DNA of 24,732 bases from a virus, in the IMG/VR virus record IMGVR_UViG_3300048921_000596, positions 1 to 24,732 of that record; one strand, 5' to 3'. The position numbers and the translations under genes were made by a program. This document shows positions 5,627 to 23,796 of this stretch, in pieces (positions within the stretch are counted from its first letter, which is position 1; each line of letters opens with the position of its first letter). The notes beneath the pieces are model-generated. The model saw nothing but the letters and a program-made list of their open reading frames with translations, did not search any database and was not told where the DNA came from.

Positions 5627-5663
5627 TGCCTTAATCCTCTTATGGAAGGAGCCTCCAAAAGTT

Positions 5664-6020
5664 ATGACTAAATCAGTTTTCACTGTTCACCTCTCTAAAT
5701 CAGCTGGCAACGAAATGAAGCCATTCATTGAGAAAATCATCGATCAGGATGATCGAAAGATGCGTATTAAGGCATTGGCTTTTGATTCAGCGACTGGGTC
5801 ATCGGGGGATAACCTGATAGGGTATGTCTTTGAATTTATTCAAAATAAAGATGTATGCTATTCGTTCGCTGCAATAGTAATTGCCTGGATACGCTCTCGA
5901 AGTGGTAGATCGATAATCATACGTAAAGGCAACACTGTAATCGAGGCTAAAGGTTTAACAGAAAAAGAACTTAAAGATATCTTGTCCCAAACTGATTCAA
6001 CCATTCATATTGATGGTTAG
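5664..6020 (+). CDS. Unknown accessory protein, C-terminal half resembles EACC1 family
   Basis: A 118-residue protein on the strand opposite to the late operon. AAGGAG at 5646-5651 precedes the ATG by 12 bases; an upstream in-frame ATG at 5604 has no such site and overlaps the dyad. Residues 1-40 are a beta-helix-beta type segment. Residues 47-112 show a hydrophobic helix, then an AWIRSRSGR-type basic turn (74-82), a short strand pair, and a GLTEKELKDIL helix (97-107). That order recalls the effector-associated constant component 1 (EACC1) proteins of bacterial conflict systems. The likeness is from pattern only and could be chance. There is no signal peptide. It converges on the three-TM gene across a shared terminator. 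It could be a lysogeny-expressed gene. Confidence 0.6.
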   Translation: MTKSVFTVHLSKSAGNEMKPFIEKIIDQDDRKMRIKALAFDSATGSSGDNLIGYVFEFIQNKDVCYSFAAIVIAWIRSRSGRSIIIRKGNTVIEAKGLTEKELKDILSQTDSTIHIDG

Positions 6021-6866: not shown

Positions 6867-7418
6867 TTACATACCATGACTCTGAGCAACACGAATGAAA
6901 CCATTCCACGCATTAAAATTCCATGCATCCCCTGCCATCAGCGGGCGTGCACCAGAACCTGACTGGCTTTCACCATACTCCCATGCTGCTCTGGACACAC
7001 TCTTATCTTTTGAATACTCGATCCACTGCTTAAAGCCTTGATATACATACTTTTTGCAATCATCAGTGGTACCACGGAATTCAGTGAAAGCATCCAGGTC
7101 ATTGCAGAGTGCAAAGCGGTTCCTTACTACAGCCGTCAATGCTCCTGGTGAGATACCCAAATCTCTTCTGTTAATGAAAATTCCAACTTCCTTGGAACAA
7201 GTTGAACTCCCGGTACATAAAAAAAAGGCTCTGATTTCCTGACGGAAAGCTAAGTCCAAAGCCATTTTTTCATAATGACCAAAGCTCTCAGGCATTTTCG
7301 GAAAAGAAGATGGTGCCAACACGGGTAACTTTGAAATAGCATCTTCATATTCGTCAGCTAAGGCGTGATGTGATAGCAAAACGAACGCTAACAATGCACT
7401 AAAGAATTTTTTTTTCAT
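6867..7418 (-). CDS. Secreted four-cysteine protein of unknown function
   Basis: A 183-residue protein with a clear Sec signal peptide: KKK n-region, hydrophobic core at residues 5-16, and an ALA cleavage site after residue 21. The mature part has Cys68, Cys74, Cys105 and Cys121, which could form two periplasmic disulfides, and a Trp-rich C-terminus. The ATG overlaps the hub gene's TGA (ATGA), so it is translationally coupled to a virion gene even though it looks like an exported host-modifying protein. Codons 2-4 form a run of nine A's. No lysozyme, lipobox or other domain was recognised. It could be a conversion factor acting in the periplasm or a superinfection-exclusion protein; neither is shown. 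Confidence 0.75.
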   Translation of the reverse strand: MKKKFFSALLAFVLLSHHALADEYEDAISKLPVLAPSSFPKMPESFGHYEKMALDLAFRQEIRAFFLCTGSSTCSKEVGIFINRRDLGISPGALTAVVRNRFALCNDLDAFTEFRGTTDDCKKYVYQGFKQWIEYSKDKSVSRAAWEYGESQSGSGARPLMAGDAWNFNAWNGFIRVAQSHGM

Positions 7419-8801: not shown

Positions 8802-9368
8802 CTAAAAGAGACCGGCTATAGAAGAAAGAAGCGACTGATTAACCGGCTTCGACGATTTAACACCAGAGTTCTGGACAGCGGACGTGCTGACGCCCTGACT
8901 CATATCAGCTTTGTCGGCCACTGAAATGGTTTTAGTGGACGTGATCAACACCTCACGCAACGTCAGCGTCGCTGATAAGACGTTTTCGGTCTGTTTATCA
9001 GTGATGACCTCCAGCACCTTGATCAGCATGTTGTTATAAATGCGCTTGCCTGTTGTGACGCTGAACGGCACCCGGCTGCGCTGCAGCGTCAGCAACTCGG
9101 CGTAAACCTCTTTGGGGCTCAGGCCAATACTGAGGCCAGTGGGCGACAGGTTGACCAAATCCAGCAGAGAACCGCCCCCGGCAAACCCCACCTCCATGAC
9201 AACCTCAGAAGGCCGGCGAAAAGCATGATCGGCTACCGGGGCTTTATCCTCGACCGGATGTTCAGTAATTTCCAGCGTGTCGCTGTGCTTTTCACTGACC
9301 ACCACGTCGGGGATCATCATCCCTATTTTGCGACTCTGCAGAGAAAACAGCGTTGATAAAATATCCAT
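8802..9368 (-). CDS. Dit-like baseplate protein
   Basis: A 188-residue protein just after the tape measure, sharing one base with it. Its pattern (SEKHSDTLEITEHPVEDKAPVADH at about 26-49, with RRPSEVVMEVGF following) is typical of Dit-like/LysM-like tail proteins that join the tube end to the hub. A TGKRIYNNMLIKVLEV segment (about 105-120) also matches this group. The C-terminal 45 residues are Ser- and Lys-rich and probably flexible. Position fits the order tape measure, Dit-like, plug, hub. No enzyme motif is visible. Confidence 0.8.
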   Translation of the reverse strand: MDILSTLFSLQSRKIGMMIPDVVVSEKHSDTLEITEHPVEDKAPVADHAFRRPSEVVMEVGFAGGGSLLDLVNLSPTGLSIGLSPKEVYAELLTLQRSRVPFSVTTGKRIYNNMLIKVLEVITDKQTENVLSATLTLREVLITSTKTISVADKADMSQGVSTSAVQNSGVKSSKPVNQSLLSSIAGLF

Positions 9369-11425
9369 TAACGCGGCCCCGTTGATAATGTCTGGCTTAA
9401 CCGTGAATTGACGGACGTCTGCTGATCAGCAACGGCTTTACCTGCCAGCGCCGGATCGGTAACACCATGGATATAAATGTTTGTTTCCTGGCTGACCTGG
9501 GCGCCGCCAGACGGCATGTTGCTCATCACGCGTGGAATGTAGTTGCGGGTTTCCTCCGGTAACAGTGCCATACCGTGCTTCTGCACGTTGCCGATCCCCC
9601 AGTTATAAGACGCCAGAGCTTTGCTGAGGTCGCCACCGTTGGATTTGAGCAACTGCGAAAGGTATTTAGCCGCGGCCTGTGCTGACTTCATCGGGTCGAA
9701 CGCTTCACCGTTCCGCAAACCCAAATCTCTGGCAGTACCGGGCATCAACTGGAAAAGCCCCTCTGCGCCAGCGCCAGACATAGCCATTGGGTCGCCAGAC
9801 GACTCCGCGATTGCCACGCTGCGCAGCAAACCTTCGGGCAGTCGGTATAGCTGCTCAAGGCGCTGTAAGGCCGGTTGCATCCAGCCGAGCAAAGCCGCGC
9901 CCGCTTTCGTAGGCTTTGGTCTGTTCATCAAGGGAAACTGGGCAGAACGGATTGAATCCATCGCAGCTTGCTGCATTGGTGTCATTGCCATTCCCGAGAA
10001 TGAATTACCTGAAACACCAGCCCACCAGGAATAAGCCTGATTCAGAAGGCCGTCAGCTTTCCCAAGCAGACCGCCAGTGCTACCCTGATTCTGATTCATA
10101 CGGTCAACAAGATATTGCCCGACGCTTTTACCCTGGCTTTTTGCTTCTTCCTGCGTTTTCCCGATTTTGTCCCAGGCGCTGACTGCCGCTATGGCTGCAA
10201 GTAAGGGTGAAAATCCTTTGCTGACCCGGGCAATTCCGGTGAGCATCCGCAAAGCCCAGCTACCGGCAACAAACACCGCCAGCACCTCGAAAGCATTTTG
10301 CAGGCCACCCACGCCGCCCGTCATATCCAGCAAAGTTTCTTTTATCCATTTCATCGCTGAAATGGCTTTATTAATCGATGGCTCCCACTGGCTCCAGTCG
10401 ATAAGGCTTTTGCCGCCTTCCTTCCAGACTTTGTAATCGTCATACAGCGCAAAGATAGCCAGGCCCAGCGCGGTGACAATCCCGACTGGCGACGTCAGAA
10501 AGGCGGTGTTCAGCAGTCGCCAGGCAACCATCAGCGCACCGAATATCTCAATGAGCTGGCGCGTGCTCTTGTCCAGCGTGTTCCACCAGTCCCGGATGTC
10601 GCCCGCCGCCTCGATGAGCCGGAATACGACCTTCCCGACAGAATCAGCCAGCCAGAGGATGATTTTTATCCCGCCTGTTAGTGCAGCCTCGATTTTGGGG
10701 AAGTTATCGATGATCTGTTTGCGAAGATTATCAATGGAGCCGGCCAGGCCCTCACTTAAGCTGGAACCGATTTTATCCCGGGCCATCGATGCCATCTGAC
10801 CGAACGAACGCAGTGACGTCATGAAGCGGTTAGAACTGACAGCAGCCTGATCCGCATTGAAGCCGATCGCCTTCGCCATCTGTGCATACTGCGCACTGAA
10901 CTGGCCCACGCCACGGCGCATGGCCAGCAACGTATTTTCATCAATGCCCAGCATCTGGGCATACTGGTTCGCCCGGTAATAAGGCATGTTGCGTAGCTTG
11001 TCGCCCACGCCCGTGAAAATGCTGGCCATATCGCGCATATTGCCGCTGGCATCGCGGGTCTGCACGCCGAGACGATTGAGAAACCCCTCAGCGCCAGGGC
11101 TGTTACGCATGAAGCGCGCCAGGCTCTCCAGCGATGACCGGGCACCCTCTGCGGTACCGCCCAGCTGTGAAACGGCATAGCCAATCTGCTGTATACCGGC
11201 GACCGTTGCGCCTGTGCGTTGCGAGGACCAGTAAAGCTGATCGAGGCCGCTGGCAATCTTAGCTGTATAGGCGAGAATGGAGAGCGCCGCCCCTTCTACG
11301 GCCGCGCCCATTTTTACAACCTGCAGCGTGGTACCGGCCACAACGGCATTAAATTTACGTGAACCTGCCTCATCGACCTGAAAGCCCAGGCTGACCAGGA
11401 AATCCTTAATGGTTTCGGCATTCAT
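9368..11425 (-). CDS. Tape measure protein with lytic transglycosylase domain
   Basis: A 685-residue protein that sets tail length and is injected with DNA. Residues 1-300 are helical with low-complexity tail-tape character, and hydrophobic spans lie near 290-335 and 385-410. Residues 523-632 form an SLT (soluble lytic transglycosylase) domain: AIAESSGDP with catalytic Glu541, then GLFQLMPGTARDLGL and ASYNWGIGNVQKHG. Such domains cut peptidoglycan locally during DNA entry. At about 1.5 angstrom per residue the tail would be near 100 nm, if the fused domain counts. The ATG overlaps the TGA of the short upstream frame (ATGA). The family call is firm. Confidence 0.93.
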   Translation of the reverse strand: MNAETIKDFLVSLGFQVDEAGSRKFNAVVAGTTLQVVKMGAAVEGAALSILAYTAKIASGLDQLYWSSQRTGATVAGIQQIGYAVSQLGGTAEGARSSLESLARFMRNSPGAEGFLNRLGVQTRDASGNMRDMASIFTGVGDKLRNMPYYRANQYAQMLGIDENTLLAMRRGVGQFSAQYAQMAKAIGFNADQAAVSSNRFMTSLRSFGQMASMARDKIGSSLSEGLAGSIDNLRKQIIDNFPKIEAALTGGIKIILWLADSVGKVVFRLIEAAGDIRDWWNTLDKSTRQLIEIFGALMVAWRLLNTAFLTSPVGIVTALGLAIFALYDDYKVWKEGGKSLIDWSQWEPSINKAISAMKWIKETLLDMTGGVGGLQNAFEVLAVFVAGSWALRMLTGIARVSKGFSPLLAAIAAVSAWDKIGKTQEEAKSQGKSVGQYLVDRMNQNQGSTGGLLGKADGLLNQAYSWWAGVSGNSFSGMAMTPMQQAAMDSIRSAQFPLMNRPKPTKAGAALLGWMQPALQRLEQLYRLPEGLLRSVAIAESSGDPMAMSGAGAEGLFQLMPGTARDLGLRNGEAFDPMKSAQAAAKYLSQLLKSNGGDLSKALASYNWGIGNVQKHGMALLPEETRNYIPRVMSNMPSGGAQVSQETNIYIHGVTDPALAGKAVADQQTSVNSRLSQTLSTGPR

Positions 11426-21195: not shown

Positions 21196-22806
21196 TTACA
21201 GGCGCATCCAGATGTCCAGATCGCTGTTCATTGGCGCATAGTTGATCATCGCTGAGTCAGCCAGGTTAGGCGATTTGGTACCGTCAGGCTGTTTGTCCAC
21301 GACGATTTTTCCCACGCCGTTTATTGAGTAGGTCGGCTGAGATAATTCGATTACCAGTTTGTCTTTGTTCGGCATGGCGCTACTGATCGATATGATTTCA
21401 TCGGGGTTATAGGCCATTCCCTCTTTAACGGCGCGGTATGTGTTCTGAAAGAGTTTGCGTAGATACCACCAGCTCTGGGCTTTGGCGTTGGCAAAGAAAT
21501 CCTTATTCAGTCTGGCCTGTTGGCCGTTGTCGCCGCGCACCGCCTCATCATCCGGATCGAACACGCCACCGCTGCCACGAAACGGCGTGGCCAGTATCAT
21601 CGGCCGGCGAGCCACTTTGCGCAGTTCGTTGATGGCACGCGCATCACCGCGCACGCCCGCGCCTAAACCGTCCTCGTCAAACCGGAACTCCTCGAGCCGA
21701 TCCTCTTCGCAGTAACCAAAGACTTTCTCTACCGATCCGTAAATGTCGCTGCCTACGCCAGACCACTCACGAATGTTCTCTAACAGGAAACCATGGCGCG
21801 AAGAGAAGGCGTTTTTATCCCGGCCCTCGTCAGCCACATCCATGGCGCCCAGGCGCTTGCCTGTGGGCTGGATGCCCAGATGGATATGCGCATCGATAGC
21901 AGCCTGCACCCATTCGCTCGGGATCAGCACGCCTTCAGCCGATGCGGCATAGTTGAGGTCCAGTTCCTGAGCAACGACAACCGGGTTATCGATCTTCTCG
22001 CACTCCTTGCGGTACCACTCGTCATCTTTGCGCGGGTCGCTGCGCCAGTGAAAGGTGAAGACAGGAATGCGCCCGCCGTGACGCTTTTGCGCGAACGGGT
22101 TAGCCATGCCGTTAACCGATGAGAGGTCGATACGGCAACGTGTGGTTTGTGACAGAGAGGCTTCAATCAGCATGGGACGCATCAGGAACGCAGCTTCATC
22201 CACGAAATAAAGCGTGGTACGGTCACCACGTCCGATGTTGTCGCCCGCCTCGCCCTTGAGCACTGCGCCGGTAGTCGGGAACTCAACACGCATATAGGGC
22301 GCGTGCTTCTTCGCGCTCCAGTCGCCGCGAAACTCAACGGGCAGCATTTCGACAAACTTACGGGCCTTCCAGAAAAGCGCCTTTGGGTCGCCGGTACTGT
22401 CCACGTATTCCTCTTTGCGCGAACCGAAGCCGATCACCATTTCTTTATTGAAGAGGCACATGGAGCAGGCAAGGCCGATTGAGGTCCAGCTCAGGCCCAT
22501 TTCGCGGCTTTTCTCGGTGATGCCGTTTTCGTGTTTGCCGCGGCGGTCCATAATCCAGTGAATCCACTCTTCCTGTTTGGGGAACAGCAGGAACGGGATG
22601 GACACAGGTAGTCCGTAATCAAGATTTCGCGGGTCTGTAGTAATGCCCCAGTCGATAATGAACTGGGCAGGATTATCGCGGTAGAACGCTTTCAGCGCTG
22701 GCAGCACCTCTGGATTAGCTCGGATCCGCTGTAGCCTTTCCATCCGCCATTCAAACACCTGCGTATAATCAGGGTTCTTGAAATCGAACGGGAATGGGAT
22801 TGGCAT
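21196..22806 (-). CDS. Terminase large subunit
   Basis: A 536-residue DNA-packaging motor. The start at 22806 (MPIPF) has AGGA 7 bases upstream; a longer frame exists but lacks this site. ATPase: Walker A-like KSREMGLSW at about 99-107 and Walker B YFVDEAAF at about 200-207. Nuclease: [10 protein letters not shown] (about 321-330) and the FDEDGLGAG motif (about 376-384), the RNase H-like acidic centre. It works with the small subunit (23323-23796), from which it is separated by a HEAT-repeat gene on the other strand and a gene-free spacer. That split is unusual. Confidence 0.95.
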
Positions 22807-22853
22807 AAATAATCCTGATATAACTAATAGGCTCAAACATCTGGAGAGGTAAA

Positions 22854-23057
22854 ATGGAAAAAAGAATTGAGAACAGGTTAATGCAAATGACCTATGATAG
22901 TTCTGCTCAGGTTAGGGCCGCTGCCGCAACTGCTTTTGGTGAAGGTGGTTATAAAACATATGAAATAACTGACAGACTCCTTCAATTGTCCGATGATAGC
23001 TCAGCCGAAGTAAGATCAGCAGCAGCTATAGCTTTAGCCCGCATAGGTAAAAAATGA
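22854..23057 (+). CDS. Small two-HEAT-repeat protein
   Basis: A 67-residue protein on the strand opposite to the terminase genes. GGAGAGG precedes its ATG at good spacing. Two 33-residue repeats are plain: [22 protein letters not shown] (about 8-29) and [25 protein letters not shown] (about 41-65), with the D-S-S-A-x-V-R-x-AAA pattern of PBS-lyase-type HEAT repeats. Such repeats make helical hairpins that bind proteins or nucleic acid; two are few for a stable solenoid, so it may oligomerise or act as an adaptor. Its own terminator follows. No similar role in packaging is known to me. Probably a lysogeny-expressed moron. Confidence 0.75.
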
Positions 23058-23064
23058 TTTAAGT

Positions 23065-23088
23065 AAGCTGGCTTTCGAGCCAGCTTTT
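23065..23088 (+). terminator. UUCG-loop terminator of the HEAT-repeat gene
   Basis: AAGCTGGCT, loop TTCG, AGCCAGCTT: a 9-bp perfect stem with a UUCG tetraloop and a TT after it, 8 bases beyond the stop. It works on plus; on minus there is no T-run, so late transcription is less affected. Confidence 0.85.
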
Positions 23089-23322
23089 AATCCTCAACGC
23101 AATAATCTACAAATCTCAATTAATTTCCCAGAATCCCCCCTATTTAACATAAGAGATCTTACCCGCCCTGGCGAAACAGCACTCACGCGCATTTTTCTGC
23201 CAAAGGCGTATTTCATGATGAATTCATTAGGGAAAAGCTGAAAACGGACTGCATAAACGATGCATAAAAGCGCCCCGAAAATGCATAGCCCGAAAAGGTA
23301 ATGAAACTACTATTTCCAGCAG
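23089..23322. other. Repeat-bearing spacer between terminase small and HEAT genes
   Basis: No convincing gene is seen. A 40-codon minus-strand frame at 23094-23216 has no ribosome-binding site. The part next to terminase small (23251-23296) holds GCATAAA at 23251-23257 and 23262-23268 (11 bp apart), ATGCATA at 23260-23266 and 23281-23287 (21 bp apart), and CCCGAAAA at about 23274-23281 and 23289-23296. Repeats in helical phase beside the small terminase gene suit a packaging-initiation (pac/cos) or regulatory site, not proven. Confidence 0.4.
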
Positions 23323-23796
23323 TTATCCCATCATTTTTTTATACAGCTCCGTAGCCTCGTCAGAGGTAAGAGAAACGCTCTCGGTTTTGATAGGTCCACC
23401 GTTCGCCCCGGTGCTCTCAACCTTCAGCTTGTTGGTATAGGCGTCGCCAACCTCTTTCGCCGCCTGCTCAATCAACTGGGCCGTAAGCGCAAAGTTCTTC
23501 ATGGTTTCGGTGCGCGTCGCCATGCGGTCAAGCGTCCGAAGTCGGTATGCCTTATTGGCGATCGGGATGTCAGCTATATGCGTCTGAAACCTGCTGCGAG
23601 TGTCGTTGAACATGTCCACCCATTTCTTTGCCAGCTTCTTGCCGCTGGCCTTCGTTGGGTCGTGTTGCTCAACCTGCTGGCGGTTAATCTTCACGCCAAA
23701 TTCTTTCAGGACGGACTCGGCCACCTGCGATGGCGTATCAAAGCAAGCAACGGATTGAACTATAAAGGCTTTAATTTCCGGTTTAAGCGCCGCCAT
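23323..23796 (-). CDS. Terminase small subunit, DUF2280
   Basis: A 157-residue protein of the DUF2280 family, which serves as small terminase in many enterobacterial phages. The N-terminus has LKPEIKAFIVQSVACFDTPS followed by a helix-turn-helix type segment VLKEFGVKINRQQVEQHDP (about 29-47) for DNA recognition. The centre, FNDTRSRFQTHIADIPIANKAYRLRTLDRM, is the helical oligomerisation part. It marks viral DNA for cutting and presents it to the large subunit. It would normally abut the large subunit; here a spacer and the HEAT gene intervene. Confidence 0.85.
   Translation of the reverse strand: MAALKPEIKAFIVQSVACFDTPSQVAESVLKEFGVKINRQQVEQHDPTKASGKKLAKKWVDMFNDTRSRFQTHIADIPIANKAYRLRTLDRMATRTETMKNFALTAQLIEQAAKEVGDAYTNKLKVESTGANGGPIKTESVSLTSDEATELYKKMMG

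Follow-up and report, generated by a model that had tools for sequence, protein, structure and literature searches.

A short cassette inserted, antisense, between the terminase genes of a phage encodes a 67-residue protein that consists of two HEAT repeats, and relatives of the gene recur in other phages and on conjugative plasmids. The window referred to throughout is the whole 24,732-nucleotide stretch of DNA that was analyzed, positions 1 to 24,732 of IMG/VR record IMGVR_UViG_3300048921_000596. That the gene is a moron is well supported. We propose tentatively, with confidence a little short of even, that the cassette is an autonomous moron encoding a minimal HEAT adaptor whose most likely use is to exclude competing elements or to protect against them. 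The region has the following features.

21196 to 22806, minus strand: terminase large subunit (TerL; phrog_2, 4.1e-27; start taken from comparison with relatives)
22810 to 23121, plus strand: inserted cassette, 312 bp (absent from relative L077, flanks 97% identical)
22816 to 22824, plus strand: candidate extended −10 promoter element, TGATATAAC (matched to the consensus by eye only)
22843 to 22849, plus strand: ribosome-binding site GGAGAGG, 4 bases ahead of the ATG (from sequence)
22854 to 23057, plus strand: two-HEAT-repeat protein gene, 67 amino acids, antisense to the packaging genes
23065 to 23088, plus strand: intrinsic-terminator-like hairpin with a TTCG loop and a short T-run (from folding)
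23140 to 23322, no strand assigned: conserved non-coding sequence, about 180 bases long, that separates terS from the cassette (also found in cassette-less L077)
23323 to 23796, minus strand: DUF2280 protein, terminase small subunit (TerS; PF10045, 1.3e-48)

The DUF2280 gene lies to the right of the HEAT gene and converges with it, and at the same place in five E. coli RefSeq records its counterpart is annotated as terminase small subunit in three and as DUF2280 in two. The gene for TerL lies to the left and diverges. Its start was set at 22806 from relatives, versus a mechanical open reading frame (ORF) start at 22836, and the divergent TerL and HEAT starts are 47 bases apart. Relative L077 contains what the region looks like when empty: from the end of terS to about 23140 it agrees with the window at 272 of 280 aligned letters (97%), from about 23140 to 23122 at 11 of 19 letters, positions 22810 to 23121 are missing, and the match resumes at the start of terL, with the first 149 residues (N-terminal) of TerL identical. 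Positions 22810 to 23121 are also missing from L079. Moreover, the terS stop and terL start of Citrobacter phage Omnitron are separated by two bases, and a prophage of E. coli AR_0118 (L006), with a DUF2280 TerS that is Omnitron-like by eye, has a HEAT gene between TerS and TerL. An extra gene between genes that adjoin in relatives is a hallmark of morons, as is deviant base composition, which the HEAT gene also displays (GC 41.7% and GC3 28%, versus 55.6% and 67% for terL). We conclude that the HEAT cassette is a genuine insertion, AT-rich relative to its neighbors, and that the initial annotation was right to place it antisense between the terminase subunits.

The non-coding stretch at 23140 to 23322 is nearly identical in L077, which has no HEAT gene, and is partly common to Hafnia phage yong1 and L023. 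Its sequence on the reverse strand is TTTTATGCATCGTTTATGCAGTCCG, and it is a candidate terminase recognition or regulatory site.

The HEAT ORF runs from an ATG to a TGA, and both repeats recognized by the initial annotation were recovered by profile search. The protein matched Pfam HEAT (PF02985) over two stretches (3.7e-11; 42.6 bits against a curated cut-off of 23.5) and HEAT_2 (PF13646) at 1.7e-10 (41.5 bits against 27.7). Repeat 1 aligned to repeat 2 with a BLOSUM62 local score of 70, a score reached by none of 10,000 shuffles of repeat 1 and none of 5,000 shuffles of the whole protein. Consistent with this pattern, an AlphaFold2 model built from a 15-sequence alignment of the family (mean pLDDT, 94.5; pTM, 0.81) placed helices at residues 3 to 12, 18 to 31, 36 to 45, and 51 to 66, that is, four paired helices in tandem. 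The repeat pattern thus survives the structure prediction by which the initial annotation allowed it to be refuted. The nearest solved structures found by Foldseek were designed alphaRep proteins (A3, 4jw2; TM 0.85, 36% identity, E only 4.5e-3), and against viral models the best Foldseek E value was 0.22. We conclude that the protein is predicted to consist of two HEAT repeats with no other domain. HEAT stacks bind proteins, and most HEAT proteins have many more repeats. The window protein thus resembles the PF02985 and PF13646 proteins and alphaRep in fold and repeat consensus but differs from most HEAT proteins in having two repeats and nothing further, and two bare repeats would hardly be capable of more than to bind, cap, or pair. 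A contig search with the window protein also returned two long multi-HEAT proteins, L003 (at least 557 amino acids, uncultured bacterium) and L004 (887 amino acids, labeled Nitrospira), which were set aside as generic.

Signals on either side of the ORF suggest that the cassette is self-contained. The ribosome-binding site, judged good in the initial annotation, is indeed present as GGAGAGG, and the UUCG terminator claimed there corresponds to a hairpin at 23065 to 23086, 3′ of the HEAT stop, with nine pairs and a UUCG loop. Folding of 23052 to 23100 gave −15.1 kcal/mol (z −3.3; 1 of 200 shuffles equally good), in keeping with the terminator of its own that a moron often carries, and L023 retains the seven inner stem pairs with a different loop. 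A simple terminator scan of the window did not list the TTCG-loop hairpin, probably because its T-run is short. The evidence for a promoter is more tentative. In five of eight aligned loci, a TTGA box precedes a (C/G)A(T/A)ATT element by exactly 17 bases, and the element ends 24 to 30 bases ahead of the HEAT ATG; this count carries no significance since the pattern was chosen after looking and counted afterwards. The window and L023 have in common, instead, the letters of TGATATAAC in alignment. A promoter scan of the window listed no site where the HEAT gene would need one. We conclude that the promoter is a candidate, weak by consensus.

To place the gene in context, 17 distinct phage contexts, the window among them, were compared. 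The survey leaves aside L054 and copies sharing a protein with a surveyed locus (e.g., L014 to L017, L030 to L033, L051, and L056); for L094 and L127 it covers the junction surroundings, with terS recognized by eye, and throughout, neighbor functions outside the window were assigned by resemblance rather than by family searches. The HEAT gene lies between terS and terL in the window, L006/L013, L018, L019, L024, L025, L042, L094, and L127; between terL and the portal gene in L023; and directly 5′ of terS in L020, L050, and L053. It is also 5′ of terS in L029 and L068, with one extra plus-strand ORF between, and in L069, with a plus-strand ORF and an HNH-like ORF between. In 16 of the 17 contexts, the gene was thus among the terminase genes or close to them, the exception being L055, in which the contig stops short of the terminase side and the neighbors are a PIN/ImmA-like pair and lysis genes on the opposite strand. 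In all 17, the HEAT gene opposes the adjacent terminase or late genes. The position between the terminase subunits, initially described as uncommon, is therefore one of several junctions used, and the terminase boundary seems to collect cargo genes.

Other ORFs are also of note. Additional plus-strand ORFs separate the HEAT gene from terS or its neighbor in L068 (3447 to 3713, without a Pfam match), L029 (3401 to 3880), and L069 (3444 to 3665), and the PIN-like and ImmA-like genes beside the HEAT gene of L055 (756 to 2398) are by eye a possible toxin-antitoxin pair. Within the window, a 119-residue ORF at 5661 to 6017 (plus strand) opposes the tail genes and is a second candidate antisense cargo gene; it reached the cut-off of no Pfam family.

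Proximity to terminase in 16 contexts might indicate that the protein aids DNA packaging as a terminase partner. The terminases themselves, however, are of several unrelated-looking types, a distinction drawn by eye from protein length and N terminus rather than from a tree: the TerS proteins are DUF2280, 318 to 351 residues (several starting MAKPDWG), 164 to 192 residues (several starting MALTDKQ), or 165 residues in L069, and the TerL proteins have 421, 490, 494, 523, or about 540 residues. Moreover, the gene is carried by conjugative plasmids as well as beside terminase, and among the 80 nearest TerL relatives (drawn from 481 confirmed ones and including some short fragments) only four were found to carry it, one of which duplicates the window exactly. 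Nor did tblastn with four family members match any of 50,697 phage records (three runs at E up to 1, one at E up to 0.1). We consider a packaging role very unlikely, and we conclude that the HEAT gene is accessory, not core.

The uniform antisense orientation, together with a HEAT start that is close to the terL or terS start in many contexts, raises the alternative that the transcript rather than the protein is functional, as an antisense RNA tuning terminase expression. To assess selection on the protein, dN/dS was calculated for ten pairs by the Nei-Gojobori method. Seven pairs gave ratios, namely window-L023 (0.17), L068-L029 (0.12), L068-L069 (0.17), L053-L055 (0.11), and three phage-plasmid pairs (0.05 to 0.08); dS exceeded 1.9 in four of the seven and was saturated in the three further pairs, and the ratios are therefore rough. 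We conclude that the HEAT protein is under purifying selection in pairs with measurable dS, which argues against a purely RNA-based function and indicates that the product does something useful. In addition, the terminator-like hairpin of the window would stop the transcript before terS, and the plasmid regions examined contain no terminase to regulate. Antisense control is the explanation to which we give the least credence of all.

The homologue search proposed at the outset located the family in both phages and plasmids, with eight residues invariant across 15 aligned members (M1, A27, G29, E30, L42, A56, A60, and R63). Besides the record of the window, 29 IMG/VR records contain a member, and one of these 29 is identical to 9,733 bases of the window. 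The initial view that such a protein is unusual in a phage is borne out by the 50,697 phage records but does not extend to uniqueness, as the family recurs in IMG/VR, a few E. coli prophages, and conjugative plasmids. It is rare in E. coli chromosomes: the AR_0118 subtype occurs in 5 and the L025 subtype in 2 of 5,426 E. coli genomes. A 701-base query spanning the junction matched 335 of the 5,426, and the 20 matches listed were to the start of terL. L002, the record identical to the window, runs beyond the right end of the window into a transposase-like ORF (7024 to 7308, minus strand) and then stops, so that it probably ends at an insertion sequence. At the left end of the window, an MsrA-like ORF and a gene for tRNA-Ser (gga) lie within positions 1 to 835 and may represent host flank and attachment site.

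Plasmids are where the family is abundant. The DNA of the L068 cassette matched 745 of 5,426 E. coli genomes at 60 to 80% identity, 744 of the 760 places being on plasmids, and among the matches listed (20 of 755 records) all were annotated as HEAT repeat domain-containing protein. By tblastn against PLSDB, the plasmid protein was found on 1,215 of 72,556 plasmids, of which 1,201 are predicted to be conjugative, with hosts mostly Escherichia (799) and Salmonella (340). In all eight regions examined (seven plasmids and one chromosomal copy, with the HEAT gene partial in one and excA partial in another), the HEAT gene adjoins excA and is antisense to it. Three of the examined plasmids were typed in PLSDB, as IncI1/B/O, IncK2/Z, and IncI-gamma/K1, and it is to those three rather than to the remainder of the 1,215 that the typing applies. 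Plasmids of this group, the I-complex, are known carriers of beta-lactam resistance. ColIb-P9 carries WP_000062603.1, the accession of the plasmid protein used as the query. That protein is like the window protein in its near-equal length, its YALGEG and AIKALGRI motifs, and its position antisense to a DNA-transfer operon, but its gene adjoins excA-traY rather than terminase. It is homologous to the L029/L068 branch of the phage family, with 74 to 77% DNA identity across the matched part, and the window protein shares 27 to 33% identity with the phage members of that branch. Only one terminator-like hairpin follows the plasmid HEAT gene, and it is oriented for excA. Type I toxin genes (DinQ-like and Hok/Gef) lie near the plasmid HEAT gene at 9322 to 9417 and 8346 to 8498 of L071. 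The phrase "HEAT repeat" does not occur in the text of two papers on IncI1 plasmids (PMC8004404 and PMC7602700), and in a figure of the former the excA-HEAT region is labeled with R64 gene names.

How the family might have reached plasmids is suggested by the sequence upstream of the gene. L053 and L020 have an intact terS, starting MALTDKQEMFCREYLID, that adjoins the HEAT gene back to back. The roughly 150 bases upstream of the HEAT gene in L029, L069, L055, and L068 match the antisense terS start of L053 and L020 (0 of 2,000 shuffles for both references), with reading frames that are truncated or decayed by eye. The upstream region of L050, which served as a negative control, did not match the terS start (830 and 1,045 of 2,000 shuffles reached the score). 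Behind the first remnant in L068 lies a second; judged by eye from translations, it resembles the N terminus of the other type of TerS (MAKPDW), which would fit an exchange of terminase modules beside a HEAT gene that remained in place. Likewise, the HEAT upstream region of L023 matches the antisense start of a window-type terL at 40 of 47 letters tested (0 of 5,000 shuffles), and L023 now has a different TerL of 421 residues. Finally, the region upstream of the plasmid copy matches the terS start of L053 (0 of 2,000 shuffles) and more weakly that of L020 (4 of 2,000). These similarities suggest that the HEAT cassette moves together with its upstream flank, and the apparently decayed phage terS start upstream of the plasmid copy suggests transfer in the direction of phage to plasmid. 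The flank may, by a further step of reasoning, have been kept because of a promoter within it.

Presence in both prophages and conjugative plasmids is also what might be expected of an anti-defense or host physiology factor, an adaptor that, by binding a host defense or regulatory protein, would make the cell tolerate the prophage or plasmid. Inhibitors of this sort are typically small binders with a single domain. Plasmid anti-defense genes cluster in the leading region, however, and on the plasmids examined the HEAT gene is beside excA in the tra region, apparently outside that leading region. Moreover, libraries of known systems offered little: PADLOC gave weak generic HEAT matches rather than a strong match to a defense model (best 3.4e-5, to part of HEAT-ARM_XIII), NCBIfam likewise gave weak generic HEAT matches with no family reaching its cut-off, and PHROGs contained no family for the window protein and gave weak matches for other members (best 1.1e-3). 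We regard the anti-defense alternative as unlikely though by no means negligible.

The second of the two chief rivals to exclusion is that the protein is an orphan immunity protein, guarding the host cell from a toxin in the manner of YibA. Five of nine members matched NCBIfam PRK09687 "putative lyase" (best 3.2e-6), which we take to be YibA, and the YibA structure 1oyz was matched with an E value of 0.0058. Imm-HEAT is among the immunity domains listed in the consulted part of PMC3482391, and PMC3150448, likewise in part, cites work in which yibA neutralized the C-terminal region of RhsA. YibA, an E. coli protein encoded after RhsA, resembles the window protein in its HEAT repeats but is 280 residues long (1oyz) and paired with a toxin, and its scores do not stand out: the match shown reaches 20.7 bits where PRK09687 requires 275, and generic HEAT proteins score equal to or above YibA. 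Furthermore, no polymorphic toxin gene was adjacent, by eye, in the ORF lists of the examined contexts; type I toxins lie near the plasmid copy, and L055 has the PIN/ImmA-like pair. An orphan immunity function is, in our estimation, improbable.

The reading that we prefer, a moron serving exclusion or protection, would operate as follows. The cassette would bring its own ribosome-binding site, its own hairpin terminator, and perhaps its own promoter, and because it is turned against the late operon it could be expressed in a dormant prophage. Its product, a putative minimal adaptor of two HEAT repeats, would bind one protein partner and act inside the cell that hosts the resident element. With a piece of terS still attached, the family would have been carried to I-complex conjugative plasmids, to oppose the tra operon beside excA, and the most likely benefit would be to exclude competing phages and plasmids or to protect against them. 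Its own signals, its opposition to the late operon, its absence from most relatives, and its place beside a plasmid exclusion gene together point to cargo of benefit to the resident element or its host. Exclusion in particular has a single pointer, the position beside excA on plasmids, and we hold that role, read from genomic context, with modest confidence. The plasmid copies, 986 of 1,215 at 99% identity or more, are not as expected of a fast arms race; recent plasmid spread may be the source of the high identity.

Phage morons include lambda bor, and Bor is a lipoprotein. Like bor-type morons, the HEAT cassette is a single late-region gene with deviant composition and apparent signals of its own that is missing from close relatives; unlike Bor, it encodes a two-HEAT protein, of a family found also on I-complex plasmids. 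Both morons and HEAT proteins are known kinds. We found no published description of this HEAT family in the open-license literature, and the small family itself, its antisense placement at terminase junctions, and its occurrence on I-complex plasmids together with a terS remnant appear to be new.

Small antisense cargo genes of prophages have often proved to act in exclusion, defense, or anti-defense, and the short ones among them readily escape notice. The HEAT gene, short as it is, connects two kinds of mobile element, through the terminase boundary of prophages and the exclusion gene neighborhood of plasmids. It is conceivable, though on balance we would not expect it, that prophages and I-complex plasmids share one exclusion or anti-defense family, with a terS fragment co-moved from phage, on more than 1,200 sequenced plasmids. 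The role is directly testable, as the 69-residue protein of the classic plasmid ColIb-P9 is simple to express, delete, and pull down. If the proposal is true, the HEAT protein would rank with the smallest HEAT adaptors and would serve mobile elements in competing with one another.
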